Source: a virus. From it: a stretch of 24,686 bases of DNA. Positions 3,134 through 20,661 of the stretch are shown one piece after another. The stretch's first letter is position 1; each line of letters begins with the position of its first letter. Where the stretch lies: the IMG/VR virus record IMGVR_UViG_3300042691_009174, positions 1-24,686 of that record, one strand, 5' to 3'. A program made the translations under genes and the position numbers. The notes beneath the pieces were generated by a model. It saw only the letters and a list, made by a program, of their open reading frames with translations, had not been told where the DNA came from and did no database searches.

Positions 3134-4144
3134 TTATCTAACTTCGTTATTGTCTATGTCTATAAGTAAATTTTCTACCTTAAAGTGACCATCAGGTTTC
3201 AAATTTACGATAGCAAAACCATGAACCCACTCATTATAAGGCATATAATCAGGACTAAGTTCACAGAGGCATCCTGTAGAGAATCCTCCATGTGATTTAC
3301 CGTCCATATTTTTGTCAATATAAGTACTAGATCGGTGGTAATGCCCGCACAAAGTATTTACTTTAGCTTTACCGTAAATATATTTAGCTGGATATACACC
3401 ACCTGCACCTCTGTATTCATGACCGTGGATGATATTTAAGTGACCTGCTTTAATGATAGTAAACTTATCTACAAGTGTTACTCTGTGTTTACCAAATTCA
3501 AGCAGTATGTCTAGTCTAAATTCTTCAGTGTCAAATATCTCAGGTGCTTTTACCTTTAGATATCTTTCTAATCTCATTTCATGATTACCTATTTTATAGT
3601 AAATAGGACAGTTAGGAAATGTTTTACGGAGCTCACCTAAGAACCACTTACCAAGTTCTATTTCTTTAACAAATCTTGGTTTGCTAGGATCTTTAGAAAA
3701 ATCAGACAAAGCATAAAAATCTAAAATGTCACCATTAAGTACTATGCAATCAACATTAGCTTCTATAGCATGTTTCATTGCAATCTTTAGTGCTTTTACA
3801 TTATGATAAGGAAAGTGAATGTCTGAAAGAACTAATACCTTACTTGTATGTTTTGCTAAATAGAGTGGTTCCCGGGTTTCTTCGTATGAATCAGGAATAT
3901 TTTCAAAGGGTACATAGTTATAAGTTTTTTCTCTAACTGTCTCTTTGTTTTTTAATTTTTGTCTGTTGTTAGTACCGTTTAAACCACTATGATATCTAAG
4001 ACAAGTTCTTGCATTTTCAATATCCTGAAATAACAAAGAATTTTCTGAGTAGATTTTTTTAGCAAGTGTTTTTATAGGTGTATTAGGAAATTTTTTCAAG
4101 GCGTCAATACACAAAGACCCTTTTGTAATGTTTTTTTTGGTCAT
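3134..4144 (-). CDS. calcineurin-like metallophosphoesterase with N-terminal helical domain
   Basis: A 336-residue protein with the full set of metallophosphoesterase motifs: DIH (108-110), GDILD (138-142), GNHE (186-189), HGHE (240-243) and GHYH (267-270). These bind two metal ions and cleave phosphomono- or diesters; the substrate (DNA, RNA, nucleotide or protein) cannot be told. The first 60 residues (ALKKFPNTPIKTLAKKIYSE, then ENARTCLRYHSGLNG) look like a small helix-turn-helix-type domain, perhaps for nucleic acid binding. I chose ATG 4144. A longer frame to 4240 would add a hydrophobic helix, but it runs antisense into the divergent gene at 4188. Family B phage and crAss-like genomes often carry such a gene beside replication functions. 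Confidence 0.88.
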   Translation of the reverse strand: MTKKNITKGSLCIDALKKFPNTPIKTLAKKIYSENSLLFQDIENARTCLRYHSGLNGTNNRQKLKNKETVREKTYNYVPFENIPDSYEETREPLYLAKHTSKVLVLSDIHFPYHNVKALKIAMKHAIEANVDCIVLNGDILDFYALSDFSKDPSKPRFVKEIELGKWFLGELRKTFPNCPIYYKIGNHEMRLERYLKVKAPEIFDTEEFRLDILLEFGKHRVTLVDKFTIIKAGHLNIIHGHEYRGAGGVYPAKYIYGKAKVNTLCGHYHRSSTYIDKNMDGKSHGGFSTGCLCELSPDYMPYNEWVHGFAIVNLKPDGHFKVENLLIDIDNNEVR

Positions 4145-4187
4145 AAGCTCTCTATACTTTAAAAATAAGAAATATAAACTAAATACC
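4145..4187. promoter_or_regulatory. divergent intergenic region, presumed back-to-back promoters
   Basis: These 43 bases separate the minus-strand phosphoesterase start (4144) from the plus-strand gene at 4188, so a promoter for each direction must lie here or just inside the genes. The stretch is almost entirely A/T. On the plus strand TACTTTAAAAATAA loosely resembles the Bacteroidota -7 element, but no exact TAnnTTTG is present on either strand. The assignment rests on gene geometry, not on a clear motif. Confidence 0.4.
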
Positions 4188-4637
4188 ATGCAAGAAAAGT
4201 ATATAACTATTAACAGAAATGCTATTAGATTGAAAATCAAGCAGTTACTAAAAAAAAGTATTGCTGAAGGTAATCCTCATATAGTAGAATTCATATTAAA
4301 TAAAGTTATGGAAGATACCAGATCAACTGAAGCATTCTTTGATGCGGTTGTAGGTATTGATAAAGAACATTATTATGATATCGGATCTGTTGTCCGTGTA
4401 AATTTTGCTAAAGTTAAAAATTGGAGTAACAAAGCAGCAATCACTACGATGCTAGAAAATCCAGACAGTTACGGAATTGATATAGAAACAGATACTATAA
4501 AATGTATTATAGCAGAACAGTATTGGTATAGTCATCGACCTAAATACTCTATAGTTTATCGAATGTTCAAGGATGAAAAGATCCAAGAACAAAAGTTAGA
4601 TATATCCGAAGATGACATTTATAAAGAAAATGAATAA
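4188..4637 (+). CDS. hypothetical protein
   Basis: A 149-residue protein. ATG 4188 (MQEKYITINRNAI) is preferred over an earlier in-frame ATG at 4128, which would lie inside the divergent phosphoesterase gene. The first third is basic and helical (AIRLKIKQLLKKSIAEGNPH, IVEFILNKVMED). The rest is mixed, with HYYDIGSVVRVNFAKVKNW and YWYSHRPKYSIVYRMF, followed by an acidic tail (DISEDDIYKENE). The beta-strand YDIGSVVRV and the SHRPKYSIVYRM segment suggest a small SH3- or OB-like barrel, only as an impression. No family recognised. Confidence 0.75.
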   Translation: MQEKYITINRNAIRLKIKQLLKKSIAEGNPHIVEFILNKVMEDTRSTEAFFDAVVGIDKEHYYDIGSVVRVNFAKVKNWSNKAAITTMLENPDSYGIDIETDTIKCIIAEQYWYSHRPKYSIVYRMFKDEKIQEQKLDISEDDIYKENE

Positions 4638-14967: not shown

Positions 14968-15476
14968 CTAAAGGATATATAGGTATTGATATTGGAAAGA
15001 AAGGTGCTATAGTCTATAAAACAGTAGATGGTAGCATTCAGGCTTACAAAATGCCGATGATAAAAAATGAACTAGATTATGCTTTCTTACATGATATATT
15101 AAAGATTATGGTAAGTGCACATAAACATAGTTATAAGAAACCACCACATCTAGTTTTTGAAAAGCTGGGTGTAATATTCGGTAGTTCGAAAGCTACAGCT
15201 TTTTCAATGGGGCATCAATCAGGTGCTGTTGAAATGTTAGCTATTGCACTAGAATTACCTTATACTAAGATTCCTGCTAAACAATGGCAGAAAGAAATGT
15301 TTATAGGTGTTGATGAAATTGTTAATAGTAAGAATAAAAGGGATACAAAAGCAATGGCGCTTGTTGCAGCTAAAAGATTGTTTCCTGATTCTGATATAAC
15401 AACTGCGGCAAAACCTCACGATGGTATGATTGACGCACTATTAATGGCGGAATATGCAGCAAGAAAAAGATTCTAA
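14964..15476 (+). CDS. ruvC-like: RuvC-like Holliday junction resolvase
   Basis: A 170-residue protein with the RNase H-fold metal residues in place: GIDIGKKGA (D9), VFEKLG (E66), and KPHDGMIDALLMAEYAAR (D153 and D157). Between them KIPAKQWQKEMF is the standard PxxWQ region. Length is normal for RuvC. It would cut four-way junctions or replication intermediates before packaging. ATG overlaps the primase stop (ATGA), and the 3' end overlaps the next gene by 23 nt. Confidence 0.9.
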   Translation: MTKGYIGIDIGKKGAIVYKTVDGSIQAYKMPMIKNELDYAFLHDILKIMVSAHKHSYKKPPHLVFEKLGVIFGSSKATAFSMGHQSGAVEMLAIALELPYTKIPAKQWQKEMFIGVDEIVNSKNKRDTKAMALVAAKRLFPDSDITTAAKPHDGMIDALLMAEYAARKRF

Positions 15477-16107
15477 ACCGGTACTCACGTATGAGGAATT
15501 TAAAAATGTAAAAAAAATCCTGTATTCCAAAAATGTTATGGATTACAGTATGGCACTGCAGATATTAGAAATGAGTGATCCTAAGAAAGTATTACCATAT
15601 TTATTTTTTATAATTATGGAGCTCTCATGGATTAGAAGAAAAAGGGGTGCGGTAAAACCCAAAAAAGAAGATCCAGAATTACATGTACTATTTGACGTTT
15701 GGGGGAAAATAACTGTTTGTAAAGGAATCAAGTCAATAGTTGATAAAGATGTATGGTTTGGATCAAATCCTTTTTCTTATAAAAGTTACATAGATTTACA
15801 TAAGATTTTAAATAACTATTCGACTCGTAAATCTGCACCAAGCAGTATAATAGATAGCATATCAAGATACGTAGGTATCAAACAAATTGTAGATAGTATA
15901 GCTATTCAGAGCAATCCTGAAGATTATTATGAACTCGAGAAAGATATTAACGAGTACATAAAGAATGATTTTTTAGAACACGATGGTCAGAATTGTGCAC
16001 CTATTGTTAATTTATACGGATTTACAATGCACTATGATTTAAAAAAAGCAGTCGAAAAAACAATACAAGACTATGACAAGACACGAAAGCCTGTCGAAAG
16101 TATGTAA
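15454..16107 (+). CDS. hypothetical protein at the head of the VWA/MoxR cassette
   Basis: A 217-residue, mainly helical protein. Segments are LTYEEFKNVKKILYSKNVMD, DPKKVLPYLFFIIMELSWIR, a basic linker RRKRGAVKPKKEDPEL, then a polar helical C-terminus (KDINEYIKNDFL, LYGFTMHYDLKKAVEKTIQD). The hydrophobic stretch at about 47-59 is short and probably buried rather than membrane. It overlaps RuvC by 23 nt and the VWA gene by 35 nt, so it is tightly coupled to the cassette. I do not recognise a family. It may be a substrate adaptor, as small partners of MoxR/VWA pairs often are; this is inference. Confidence 0.75.
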   Translation: MQQEKDSKPVLTYEEFKNVKKILYSKNVMDYSMALQILEMSDPKKVLPYLFFIIMELSWIRRKRGAVKPKKEDPELHVLFDVWGKITVCKGIKSIVDKDVWFGSNPFSYKSYIDLHKILNNYSTRKSAPSSIIDSISRYVGIKQIVDSIAIQSNPEDYYELEKDINEYIKNDFLEHDGQNCAPIVNLYGFTMHYDLKKAVEKTIQDYDKTRKPVESM

Positions 16108-17248
16108 AGAACTTATGCTCAAAGAACCGTATTACGGTCTCTTTTTGATTATGACAGAAAAAGAATGGTCTGATAAGGTACCAACCGCTGGTGTTGCTAA
16201 ACACAACATCAACTACAAACTTATAATCAACCCCACATTTTGGGATTCGTTAGAAATGAATCATAAAATAGGTCTTACTAAACACGAGATGCTACATCTA
16301 GCATTTTTTCATCCTATTTACAGAGACGATTTTAATGATAAAGATCTTTTTAATATAGCTGCAGATATTGAGATTAATCAATATATAGATCCTACCACCT
16401 TACCTGAAGGAGCACTTATGCTAGACTCATTTCCAGAAATAAGTCTTCCTCCTAAAGCTGGTACAAAAGTCTATTATGATTTACTAAGCTCAAATAAGGA
16501 TAAGTCACCAACATTGCAAAATTTATTAAACGCAATGGGAAATGGTGAAATGATTTCTACAGATGGGTTAAATAATCCTAATCACGATTGGGGAGAATTT
16601 GAAGGAATAAGCGATTCTGAAAAAAGACTTCTTAAAAGTCAGTTAGAATATCAAATGAAGGAACTTGCCGCAGAGGTAACAAAATCTAGAGGTACAGTTC
16701 CTGGTGAGATACAAGAAATTATTAAGAATTTTACTGTATATGAAGAACCTAAGTTTGACTGGCGAGGATACGTTCGCCGATTTGTAGGTAGATCGATAAA
16801 GATATATACCAAAAAACTTAGAAGAAAGTTTAACAGAAGATTTGAAGATAACCCAGGTCTTAAAGTTAAACAGAAAAAACATGTTTTAGTTGCTGTAGAT
16901 ACATCAGGTTCTGTTAGTAAAGATGAGCTCAAAGAATTCTTTTCTGAGATTCATCATCTTAGCAAAACCGGATCAGATGTTACTGTTGTTCAGTGCGACA
17001 CTGCAATTAGTAACATCAGCCCATATAGAAAAAGTGATGAAATTAAACTTCACGGTAGGGGCGGTACATCTTTTGATCCTGTTATAGAATACTATGACAC
17101 GAATCAAAGAAAATATTCATGTTTAATATACTTTACAGATGGAGAAGCACCCGCTCCCGATAAACCTAAAGGGAGTATTTTATGGGTATTGAGCTCACGC
17201 TCGTCAATGAACAAAGAATTACCAGGTCAAATTATCAAATTAAATTAA
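16073..17248 (+). CDS. VWA-domain protein with HExxH metallopeptidase-like N-domain (DUF2201 type)
   Basis: A 391-residue two-part protein. The N-terminal part has LTKHEMLHLAFFH (68-80), a HExxH with a third His at 80, followed by FNIAADIEINQYI (93-105); this is the DUF2201 metallopeptidase-like region. A basic segment (VRRFVGRSIKIYTKKLRRK) separates it from a von Willebrand A domain with a complete MIDAS: DTSGSVS (276-282), GRGGTSFDP (T332) and YFTDGE (D356). Such proteins pair with MoxR-family AAA ATPases in chaperone or cofactor-loading machines. The MoxR gene follows 5 nt later. Whether the HExxH is proteolytic is unknown. ATG 16073 is kept because it completes the first helix; 16115 is an alternative. 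Confidence 0.88.
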   Translation: MTRHESLSKVCKELMLKEPYYGLFLIMTEKEWSDKVPTAGVAKHNINYKLIINPTFWDSLEMNHKIGLTKHEMLHLAFFHPIYRDDFNDKDLFNIAADIEINQYIDPTTLPEGALMLDSFPEISLPPKAGTKVYYDLLSSNKDKSPTLQNLLNAMGNGEMISTDGLNNPNHDWGEFEGISDSEKRLLKSQLEYQMKELAAEVTKSRGTVPGEIQEIIKNFTVYEEPKFDWRGYVRRFVGRSIKIYTKKLRRKFNRRFEDNPGLKVKQKKHVLVAVDTSGSVSKDELKEFFSEIHHLSKTGSDVTVVQCDTAISNISPYRKSDEIKLHGRGGTSFDPVIEYYDTNQRKYSCLIYFTDGEAPAPDKPKGSILWVLSSRSSMNKELPGQIIKLN

Positions 17249-17253
17249 GCTTT

Positions 17254-18435
17254 ATGGCAAACACAAAACAAGTAGTACTAAATACTGCAGAACTTAAAGA
17301 TTTTATTAAGCACATTGTAAACAACAATCGTTATCTTCAGGAAAACAACAAACGTCCTGTAGCTATTAACATAGAAGGTGAATCAGGTTTGGGTAAAACT
17401 AGTACTATTTTGCAGATAGCAGACGAATTGCAAATGCAATGCGTAAAACTAAACTTAAGTCAGCTCGAGGAGATTGGTGACCTTGTAGGTTTTCCTATGA
17501 AAGAACACCAGATGATTAAGGCAGATATAACTAAATGGGTAACAGAGTCAGTAATGCCTCAGTATATCCAGAATGGATACAAACCAACGGGTGAAAAGCG
17601 TATGACTCACGCTGCACCAGAATGGATTCAAGGTAAAAAAGAAGGTGGTCTATTAATTCTTGACGACTGGACTCGTGCAGATCTAAGATTTGTACAAGCA
17701 GTAATGGAAATTATTGACCGTCAGGAGTATATCTCATGGAAACTACCAAAAGACTGGCATGTCATCTTAACTTCTAATCCTGATAATGGTGAGTATCTTG
17801 TAAATTCTATTGACTCAGCTCAACGTACTCGTTTTATTACAGCAGAGCTGAAGTTTGATATAGACTGTTGGGCGAAGTGGGCAGAAGAAAATGATATTGA
17901 CTCTCGTTGTATTAACTTTCTTTTGATGAATCCTGAACTTGTAAAGAATGATATCAATCCTCGTAGTATTACTACATTCTTTAATTCCATTAGTTCTATT
18001 AAATCTTTTGAGAGTGAATTACCTCTTATTCAAATGATCGGTGAAGGTAGTGTAGGTATTGAGTTCAGTACTTTATTTACAACTTTCATTAATAATAAAC
18101 TGGATGAGATGGTATCTCCTAAAGAAATTCTCACAGGTTCCGATTGGAAAGTGATTGAGGATAAACTTAGAAAGACAATGTATGACGGCGAGCATTACCG
18201 TGCAGACATTTCTAGTTTGATGGCAACACGTATTGTAAACTTTACATCTTTTTATGCTCAGTCAAATCCTATCACAGATAGAAATATCGATAGGATTAAA
18301 GCTATCATAAAAGCAGAAAACCTGTTTGCATTGGATCTACACTATTTTATGATCCGTAATATTGTTCATAGTAATAAAACTAAATTTCAAAAGCTTCTTA
18401 TAGATGCTGAAATTGTAAAACTTGCTGTAAAATGA
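17254..18435 (+). CDS. MoxR-type AAA+ ATPase
   Basis: A 393-residue AAA+ protein taken from ATG 17254, five bases after the VWA stop; an in-frame start at 17182 would overlap that gene. Walker A is GESGLGKTS (42-50). Walker B is GGLLILDDWTRAD (131-143), where the usual DE is DD. Sensor 1 is ILTSNPDNGEY (171-181), and DSAQRTRF (187-194) holds the arginine-finger region. The lid and a long C-terminal helical region follow. MoxR ATPases remodel proteins together with VWA partners, which fits the gene next door. ATGA junction with the gene downstream. Confidence 0.9.
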   Translation: MANTKQVVLNTAELKDFIKHIVNNNRYLQENNKRPVAINIEGESGLGKTSTILQIADELQMQCVKLNLSQLEEIGDLVGFPMKEHQMIKADITKWVTESVMPQYIQNGYKPTGEKRMTHAAPEWIQGKKEGGLLILDDWTRADLRFVQAVMEIIDRQEYISWKLPKDWHVILTSNPDNGEYLVNSIDSAQRTRFITAELKFDIDCWAKWAEENDIDSRCINFLLMNPELVKNDINPRSITTFFNSISSIKSFESELPLIQMIGEGSVGIEFSTLFTTFINNKLDEMVSPKEILTGSDWKVIEDKLRKTMYDGEHYRADISSLMATRIVNFTSFYAQSNPITDRNIDRIKAIIKAENLFALDLHYFMIRNIVHSNKTKFQKLLIDAEIVKLAVK

Positions 18436-19667
18436 AATTAGGAAGTGTAACATTTAATAAATATGTAGAAATTAAAATTGTAGCTGCAGAACCCTCGATA
18501 GCAGCTAGTGAATATGGGTATGTAGCTGACTATTCTAAAGCATCATACAAAGATTCTTATAGAGCAACTGAAGAGTTTCAAAAAGAGTTATTTACAGGTT
18601 TGTCTGTAAATAACTCTGTTCCTGATCTTAGTACCATAGGTCAATTGTATATTACTCCAAGCTGTAAATTACCTAGATATAAGCTTCGCGATCTCAAAGA
18701 AAAGCATAATGTAAAGGTTATAAGAGATGCTAATAAAGCTGATACAATAGTTATAGCAAAAGACGAGATATCTCAAATATCAAAATCTTTATATGGTAGA
18801 TATATATACAAGAAAGATGAGTTTGTAAATATTTTTACAAGATTTCTATCAGAACCAGATTTAGCAGTAAAGATAACCAAAAAAAATCATAGGTTACCTT
18901 ATAGTTGGAGAACTTTAGATTCATCTATTATTGTTAATTACTGGAAGAAATTTATAGATGATGTTAAAAATGTAGATGTAGATTATTTAATCGCATCTTA
19001 TCAGATTAAAGATAAAATCTGTAATTTGTTAGTTACAATTTTAGCTGAAAACTCTTTAATGTATCACTACATGGATACTGGTGAAGGTGGTACAGGTTAT
19101 ACAGATTTTTACGAAGGTGACGACCTTGCTAGAATGGCTTTATACTCTAAGAAAAATGTATACACAGATGCTTCTTTTCAAAATTTACTCGGCGAGTCTA
19201 TAATTGATGTTAATCAATATTGGTTTATAGATGAGTTGTTAAAAAATAATGAAGAAAGTAATGTAGAAATGGGTCTAACACTTATGGCAAATTGTAACTT
19301 TGAACAAAGCACACCATATCTAATGATGCTTGTATCAGATCACTATTTTGGTCATAGACATTACAATTATTGTAAGAGTGTAGCTTTTAAAAGTCTTCTA
19401 AGTTATTTAAACTACAGAAGATATAATGAACGCTTTAGCTTAGATCAAATTTTAGATAGAGCAAAAGAGCTTAATCTTGTAACAGATGACTTAAAAGATG
19501 TAATTAAGAAAAGATTTTTAGACAGCTACAATCATCTTTTTACTGAACATAAATGGGTAACAGTCTCTGATATCCTTATAGTTGATCCAAATCCTTTCGA
19601 CACTACCGATCCCAAAGAAAATGAAGAAGAAATAGAATTTATGGAGGAGGATGATAATGATCTATGA
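18432..19667 (+). CDS. large unknown protein coupled to the MoxR/VWA pair
   Basis: A 411-residue protein with no recognised domain. The N-terminal third mixes strands and helices (SVTFNKYVEIKIVAAEP, STIGQLYITPSCKLPRYKL, KADTIVIAKDEIS). The middle includes ENSLMYHYMDTGEGGTGYTD and FYEGDDLARMALYSKKN; a later part is helical, with VEMGLTLMANCNFEQSTPYL suggesting a repeat-type helical array of MIS or HEAT kind. The tail is very acidic (DPKENEEEIEFMEEDDNDL). It starts within the MoxR stop (ATGA) and overlaps the nuclease start by 17 nt. An adaptor or substrate of the ATPase is plausible. Confidence 0.8.
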   Translation: MKLGSVTFNKYVEIKIVAAEPSIAASEYGYVADYSKASYKDSYRATEEFQKELFTGLSVNNSVPDLSTIGQLYITPSCKLPRYKLRDLKEKHNVKVIRDANKADTIVIAKDEISQISKSLYGRYIYKKDEFVNIFTRFLSEPDLAVKITKKNHRLPYSWRTLDSSIIVNYWKKFIDDVKNVDVDYLIASYQIKDKICNLLVTILAENSLMYHYMDTGEGGTGYTDFYEGDDLARMALYSKKNVYTDASFQNLLGESIIDVNQYWFIDELLKNNEESNVEMGLTLMANCNFEQSTPYLMMLVSDHYFGHRHYNYCKSVAFKSLLSYLNYRRYNERFSLDQILDRAKELNLVTDDLKDVIKKRFLDSYNHLFTEHKWVTVSDILIVDPNPFDTTDPKENEEEIEFMEEDDNDL

Positions 19668-20661
19668 AACCTTTGACAATCCTATTGCACTAGAAGAAGA
19701 ATTTTATTCAAAAGAATTCTATTTTAGTTACAGCGGGTTAAGTAGATTACTTTATTCACCGAAACTATTTTATTCACACTATGTCTTGCAACAACGAGAA
19801 GAAAGAACAGATAGTCACCTTATTGAAGGTAAGCTTCTTCATTGCTTGTTACTTGATCCTGAAAGTGTTGATGAACAGTTTGTTATAAGTCCTAAAACTT
19901 TGCCAAGTGATAATGTAAAAACTGTCGTAGACAGAGTTTACAAATATGCTGTAAGTGCTAATGCTCTTGATCAAGATTTCAAAAGTTTCAGTAGTGAAAT
20001 TTTAGAAATACTTAAAGAGATTAACCTTCATCAATCGTTAAAGACTGATGAGCAGCGGATAGAAAAAGTAGCAACGGAGCAATCCGTTGCCTACTTTGAC
20101 TTTCTTAAAACAAGAAATGGGAAAGATATTATAGACACTGATACATATATGAAGTGTCTTGATACAGTACAACTCCTGAGACAGGAGAAGGAAGTAACGT
20201 CGTTACTAGGTACATTTACAAATAATCACGTTAAAGTTTATAACGAGATGCCTCTTCAAGTAAGACTTGCAGGGTTTCCTTTTGGTATAAAAGGAATTGT
20301 AGATAATATTGTTATAGACGAAATTGGTAAAACTATAACAATTAACGACCTTAAAACGACAAGCAAAACAATAGCTGAGTTTCCTGAAAGTGTAGAGTAT
20401 TACAATTACTGGTTACAGGCAGCTATCTATAAAAAATTAGTTATAGACTATTTTGATTTAGATAGCAGCTGGGAAATAAACTTTAATTTCATAGTTATAG
20501 ACAAGTATGAGCAGATATATATATTTGCTGTGTCGAAAGAAACTATGGCAAAGTGGTATGATACACGACTTATGGATACTTTAGCTAAAGCTAAATATCA
20601 TTATGATTCGAGAAACTACTCGCTTCCCTATGATATGGCGGTAAACAAAGTAGTACTGTAA
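19651..20661 (+). CDS. PD-(D/E)XK exonuclease (Cas4/RecB/RecE-like)
   Basis: A 336-residue nuclease. The N-terminal SYSGLSRLLYSPKLFY (26-41) and GKLLHCLLLDPE (60-71, H64) are typical of the RecE/phage exonuclease branch. The metal site is VYNEMPLQV (E199), FPFGIKGIVDNIVID (D218) and TITINDLKTTSK (D233, K235); YYNYWLQAAIYKKLV (Q256, Y260) completes it. It would resect DNA ends or act with the Sak4-like protein in annealing. The start is preceded by a GGAGGAGG stretch, one of the few Shine-Dalgarno-like sites here, though it is also coding for the acidic tail upstream. Met1 (19651) and Met3 (19657) are both possible starts. Confidence 0.88.
   Translation: MIMIYETFDNPIALEEEFYSKEFYFSYSGLSRLLYSPKLFYSHYVLQQREERTDSHLIEGKLLHCLLLDPESVDEQFVISPKTLPSDNVKTVVDRVYKYAVSANALDQDFKSFSSEILEILKEINLHQSLKTDEQRIEKVATEQSVAYFDFLKTRNGKDIIDTDTYMKCLDTVQLLRQEKEVTSLLGTFTNNHVKVYNEMPLQVRLAGFPFGIKGIVDNIVIDEIGKTITINDLKTTSKTIAEFPESVEYYNYWLQAAIYKKLVIDYFDLDSSWEINFNFIVIDKYEQIYIFAVSKETMAKWYDTRLMDTLAKAKYHYDSRNYSLPYDMAVNKVVL
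20071..20207. repeat. cluster of three perfect stem-loops inside the exonuclease gene
   Basis: GCAACGG/CCGTTGC (20071-20077/20084-20090), CTCCTG/CAGGAG (20173-20178/20182-20187) and AGTAAC/GTTACT (20193-20198/20202-20207) are perfect 6-7 bp inverted repeats with 3-6 nt loops, within about 140 nt. The last two are five bases apart. Confidence 0.5.

Follow-up and report, generated by a model that had tools for sequence, protein, structure and literature searches.

In two lineages of uncultured phages, the known pair of a MoxR-type ATPase and a von Willebrand factor A (VWA) protein with a metallopeptidase motif is accompanied by an undescribed, obligatory third protein, a candidate adaptor, and by a small protein related to it, with counterparts in Bacteroidota. 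We describe this cassette from the IMG/VR virus record IMGVR_UViG_3300042691_009174, whose full stretch of 24,686 nucleotides is referred to as the window. It consists of four coupled genes in the order S-V-M-X: the small outer gene S, the VWA gene V, the ATPase gene M and the large outer gene X (Table 1). All four lie base-exact where the initial annotation had placed them, with a 35-nt overlap at S/V, a 5-nt gap at V/M, a 4-nt overlap at M/X and a 17-nt overlap of X with a downstream nuclease. A start of M that includes residues 1-24 was rejected, since relatives begin at or near M25 (= 17254). Our favored reading, to which we give roughly even chances, is that the cassette encodes one ATP-driven extraction or cleavage machine of the MoxR-VWA (midasin) type, for which X (and S) would act as target adaptors.

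The third component X and its relative S

The initial annotation had proposed looking for the two unknown outer genes beside MoxR/VWA in related phages, and they are found there. The observation proves stronger than first stated, and its interpretation is correct in part. X adjoins M/V in 98 of the 100 evaluable viral loci (those with at least 900 bases beyond M), in two phage lineages and several gene orders, while S is present in most; in the two loci counted without X the contig breaks off, at V in L117 and inside X in L132. Retention at this level led us to reject X as a random or lineage-specific open reading frame. The orders include the S-V-M-X of the window, S-V-M-X-X, S-M-X-V and X-V-M, the second lineage has M-X-V with S first in some, and two tandem X genes occur in eleven loci. 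The fact that the orders are rearranged yet the genes are kept together means that the cassette is a conserved unit. All X proteins form one family although many share less than 20% identity, and the relatives could be reached only via the conserved M, which gave 43 and then 80 viral loci. Single-sequence searches with X or S found nothing, three X queries had no match in 50,697 phage records, and alignment A1 was too diverse for scanning sequence collections. One X homologue (L099, G007:57320-58282) carries a single in-frame TGA, for which recoding, a frameshift or a sequence error are possible explanations.

The earlier statement that the outer genes match nothing holds for Pfam, PHROG and NCBIfam, where neither S nor X has a match above chance, but it does not extend to the two genes themselves. 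The X profile also matches the small upstream gene, and profile-profile comparison (hhalign) aligns S to the C-terminal part of X over 126 columns with a probability of 97.8% and an E-value of 6.7e-13. The X C-terminal profile finds the window S alone with an independent E-value of 0.0087 and reaches 1e-17 on S relatives in a small set. Judged by these profiles, S is a stand-alone relative of the X helical domain, and both outer genes are related.

The AlphaFold 2 (AF2) model of X predicts a BRCT-like domain (residues 65-112 and 223-254) broken by an insert (113-222) and followed by a helical domain. The top three matches of the X sequence profile against all of the PDB, obtained independently of the model, are PARP-1 BRCT (E 0.028-0.23), a Foldseek structure search with the model also places PARP-1 BRCT first, and VIA gives Z scores of 5-6.5 to the BRCT domains of MCPH1, BRCA1 and PARP. 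The Pfam BRCT cut-off is passed by a bacterial homologue only (23.7 vs. 21.3 bits). We therefore regard a BRCT identity of X as moderately supported by profile and model. While the PARP-1-type BRCT domain is the best match in both sequence and structure for these two segments, X differs from PARP-1 in its hypervariable insert of about 110 residues and in having no PARP catalytic domain. Against HEAT/ARM proteins, the X helical domain reaches VIA Z scores of up to 7.1 and S, helical in its AF2 model, of up to 5.5, both in the range of common arrangements. In BFVD, X has four significant relatives, all uncharacterized, of which one belongs to a crAss-like virus and two to a single podovirus, and the S model matches no viral structure significantly. 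Since the family does not conserve the acidic tail of X, we rejected it as a functional element.

The V-M pair in phages and in Bacteroidota

The reading of the middle genes as a HExxH plus VWA protein with a full metal ion-dependent adhesion site (MIDAS) and a MoxR ATPase is confirmed by Pfam, PHROG, PDB profile comparison and conserved motifs. V matches DUF2201_N (7.6e-19) and DUF2201 VWA-like (1.3e-18), both above cut-off, and its HExxH (71-75) and MIDAS (D276-x-S-x-S280, T332, D356) are invariant in 14 relatives. The VWA match extends to residue 390 of the 391 in V, which thus has no C-terminal effector domain. PHROG 1314 and many RefSeq phage records name V an "HNH endonuclease", a widespread misannotation of what is really HExxH plus VWA; we rejected the name, as V has no HNH match in Pfam. 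In M, Walker A and Walker B are conserved among relatives, PHROG 1297 matches at 8.4e-36, and Pfam AAA_5 scores 19.7 bits on the window protein, just under the 22-bit cut-off that a bacterial relative exceeds. The best PDB match of the M profile is Midasin (E 1.4e-9). Like Midasin (Rea1/Mdn1) and RavA-ViaA, the cassette appears to combine a MoxR-type AAA+ ring with a MIDAS domain; it differs from them in that its subunits are small and separate, the VWA subunit bears a putative protease and the third subunit is another one. M and V are also known to resemble, distantly, the CobS/CobT and CoxD/CoxE pairs, which might suggest a machine loading a cofactor or metal center into a phage metalloenzyme. 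This is very improbable, as M matches CobS at an E-value of 0.096 only, no candidate metalloenzyme is constantly linked to the cassette, and the BRCT domain, the variability of X and the constraint on HExxH would all be left unexplained.

The V-M pair itself is not new. It is the same pair as gp25 and gp24 of phage N4, and V matches in 555 phage records, in 427 of which the alignment covers at least 80% of its length, with identities of about 25-31% in the best of the 427. A MoxR/vWA-metallopeptidase pair is likewise on record for jumbo phages of group 2.2, with a suggested part in virion assembly (Iyer, 2021, PMC7824862). The N4 gp24-gp25, PHROG 1297/1314 and jumbo group 2.2 pairs belong to the same V and M families, M being alignable as well, but the spacing between the two genes of the N4-kind pair varies in the inspected records, unlike in the cassette, and around eight known phage V/M pair records the X and S profiles give no credible match. 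The new part is thus X and S, and the initial claim of an undescribed system has to be narrowed to these two conserved cassette members. In the literature we found no proven role for the MoxR/vWA-peptidase pair of hundreds of phages, and no description of MoxR with BRCT or of a crAss-like phage with MoxR, BRCT or von Willebrand proteins.

The genes around the cassette bear on whether the machine could be a virion-assembly chaperone or protease for the folding and trimming of phage structural proteins, a role put forward for the jumbo-phage pair (PMC7824862) and reported for the Acidianus two-tailed virus. In lineage 1, that of the window, the cassette sits in a replication and recombination operon (DnaB-like helicase, Sak4, primase, RuvC, nuclease, PolA, pyrophosphohydrolase), and in lineage 2 it lies beside an exonuclease and thymidylate kinase. 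No recognized structural gene is adjacent in either, and the N4 pair has the RNA polymerase and nucleotide genes nearby, with the virion genes elsewhere. In lineage 2, TerL is encoded on the strand of X at a distance of about 4-9 kb, which agrees with a role in assembly; bacterial chromosomes, in contrast, hold a V-M-BRCT version without any virion, and a BRCT domain would not be expected in such a machine. Taken together, we consider virion assembly rather unlikely. The DnaB-like helicase of the window is closest to those of crAss-like phages (31-34%), and the TerL of one second-lineage locus (L022) is 61% identical to that of Flavobacterium "immuto" myophages. The position between RuvC and the nuclease given in the initial annotation applies to part of lineage 1; in one subgroup (L005-L014, 5.2-6.8 kb) three small genes take the place of RuvC ahead of S and V, and lineage 2 has other neighbors.

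Four Bacteroidota contigs carry V-M as well (Cellulophaga baltica L065, Chitinophaga L059, Saprospiraceae L058 and a metagenome-assembled genome, L060). There V-M is followed by a large leucine-rich repeat (LRR) protein with a BRCT-like segment and the same helical motif; L058 has several LRR/BRCT proteins in tandem, one of which passes the Pfam BRCT cut-off. Against the X profile, the bacterial LRR proteins match in the helical part (E 8.7e-6) and the BRCT part (0.0011) in the same order, and at the level of these profiles phage X looks like the bacterial BRCT plus helical core minus the LRRs. The presence of V-M with LRR/BRCT proteins in Bacteroidota, a bacterial system so far uncharacterized, means that the machine is not strictly phage-specific, as had been supposed. 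PF13203 matches occur in 10 genomes only (among 60 relatives of Cellulophaga and 395 members of its phylum), and these have short flanks and do not suffice in number for a census of the bacterial form.

LRRs are typical recognition repeats, and the cassette shares with the MoxR-vWA ternary conflict systems of multicellular bacteria the grammar of MoxR, vWA and an obligatory third protein that combines conserved with highly variable parts, where that third protein is VMAP, iSTAND, FtsH or a beta-propeller (PMC7159879). A phage-borne conflict module directed against rival phages would fit this likeness. Here, however, the third protein (X, in 98 of the 100 loci) is BRCT plus HEAT-like, V has an N-terminal HExxH and ends with its VWA domain with no effector fused, the cassette is phage-borne and in a replication operon, and its near-universal presence in the lineage suits a core function. 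X and 24 relatives have no Pfam match to VMAP-C, iSTAND, FtsH or beta-propeller domains, with no direct VMAP-C profile comparison made. PADLOC yields only weak P-loop matches for the window proteins (best 1e-3) and thus no match to an anti-phage defense component. Filing the cassette under PADLOC or VMAP-type systems is unsupported, and we consider a conflict module improbable.

Constraint and variability within the cassette

Among eight neighboring genes, conservation is lowest for X or S in 11 of 11 genome pairs (X lowest in 8 and tied in 1), while M or V is mostly among the most conserved. Within X, residues 65-112 and 255-305 are conserved blocks and residues 1-64 and 113-222 are hypervariable; between L002 and L003, for example, the conserved blocks are 79% and 92% identical and the variable ones 28% and 39%. 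In well-diverged lineage-1 pairs, the conserved blocks show dN/dS values of 0.07-0.13 and the variable ones values of 0.23-0.74 at comparable dS, a pattern that fits a docking-plus-recognition adaptor. Recombination alone is not favored as the source of this diversity, as dS in the variable parts is not above that of the conserved parts in most pairs, the exception being L002/L003, where it is higher.

The hypervariable arm and insert, together with the tandem X duplicates of many genomes, could also point to counter-defense or host take-over, in which X and S would recognize host (defense) proteins for M-V to unfold or cleave and the variable parts of X would track a changing host target. X is, on the other hand, a fixed core gene outside any variable anti-defense island, and no target is known. 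We find this explanation unlikely, noting that it overlaps with our favored reading and differs from it in the target only.

Constraint is strongest on the catalytic motifs of V and M. In relatives, M is interrupted by group I introns identified with Rfam, which lie within Walker A (between residues 46 and 47) or directly behind Walker B. V is interrupted by inserts with no Rfam match, which split HExxH (73/74), follow D98 or fall at T332 of the MIDAS. V or M is interrupted in nine loci (L016, L033, L036, L037, L039, L043, L056, L107 and L148), with four inserts across V and M in L037. Mobile introns tend to settle at the most conserved codons, and the fact that the inserts fall at or near motif codons gives independent support that the ATPase, MIDAS and peptidase sites matter; by its insert position, D98 of V is likely an active-site residue.

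Table 1. Positions of the cassette genes, their segments and related features (window coordinates unless a contig is named).
Feature	Position	Strand	Basis
S, small helical protein, 217 aa	15454-16107	+	profile-profile comparison with X
S part best matching X C-terminal domain (residues ~10-59)	15481-15630	+	X C-terminal profile
V, DUF2201_N putative metallopeptidase + VWA-like co-chaperone/protease, 391 aa	16073-17248	+	Pfam
V HExxH codons (71-75), invariant	16283-16297	+	alignment; inserts in relatives exactly here
V MIDAS DxSxS codons (276-280), completed by T332 and D356	16898-16912	+	alignment
M, MoxR/midasin-type AAA+ ATPase, 393 aa, slowest-evolving cassette gene	17254-18435	+	Pfam, PHROG, PDB profile
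M Walker A GESGLGKT (42-49)	17377-17400	+	group I intron here in L016 and L037
X, third component, BRCT-like + HEAT/ARM-like, 411 aa	18432-19667	+	model, profiles, linkage
X 1-64, hypervariable N-terminal arm	18432-18623	+	block identities, dN/dS
X 65-112, conserved BRCT-like core, first half	18624-18767	+	structure match, identities, PDB profile
X 113-222, hypervariable insert inside BRCT-like domain	18768-19097	+	model, identities, dN/dS
X 223-254, remainder of BRCT-like domain	19098-19193	+	model, structure match
X 255-372, HEAT/ARM-like helical domain common to S	19194-19547	+	model, structure and profile match
PD-(D/E)XK nuclease, downstream neighbor of X	19651-20661	+	open reading frame list
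Bacteroidota V-M operons with LRR + BRCT-like proteins	L058:5985-13966; L059:9049-11445; L065:9003-11735

Elsewhere in the window, a tRNA-Lys (TTT) gene (2504-2578) lies near an opposite-strand metallophosphoesterase-like open reading frame (3134-4240).

A candidate adaptor-directed machine

The ring of midasin and of other MoxR-VWA pairs acts by pulling on a substrate that is presented to it through the MIDAS. In our favored reading M would likewise assemble an AAA+ ring, V would dock a substrate or adaptor via its MIDAS, and, as a probably active zincin with an intact HExxH, V would probably cleave what the M ring pulls. X would be the obligatory third subunit, with its BRCT core and first HEAT-like helices binding the machine and/or DNA, and its hypervariable arm and BRCT insert choosing the target; S, with the same helical domain, may dock likewise as a second adaptor or regulator. 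The target would most likely be a protein bound to DNA under replication or a host factor encountered early in infection, which we favor over virion parts since the neighboring genes of both lineages serve replication, recombination or nucleotide metabolism. Gene linkage, the homology of S and X, domain composition, motif constraint and fast evolution limited to defined parts of X are observed; it is complex formation, the adaptor role, proteolysis and the target that we infer.

Several points weigh against this reading. The structure models cover single chains, the X model is middling (pLDDT 75.5, pTM 0.50), the BRCT matches of phage X are individually weak (E 0.02-0.2), and the helical-domain Z scores of 6-7 may reflect a common arrangement only. 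No region of X has a dN/dS above 1, so that positive selection is not shown and relaxed constraint would look alike, and the same-strand TerL of lineage 2 leaves room for a late role.

More tentatively, and with less confidence than we place in the machine itself, the cassette may represent an undescribed ternary or quaternary class of MoxR-VWA systems in phages and Bacteroidota, a metalloprotease aimed by BRCT-HEAT adaptors whose variable insert retargets it, for example to strip or destroy proteins on replicating phage DNA. For a pair known from so many phages, the partners described here suggest which surfaces probably dock (the conserved ones) and which probably recognize (the variable ones), and the bacterial homologues open the system to genetics. 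Should X and S indeed be adaptors, the cassette would provide phages with an ATP-driven protease whose target recognition can be exchanged.

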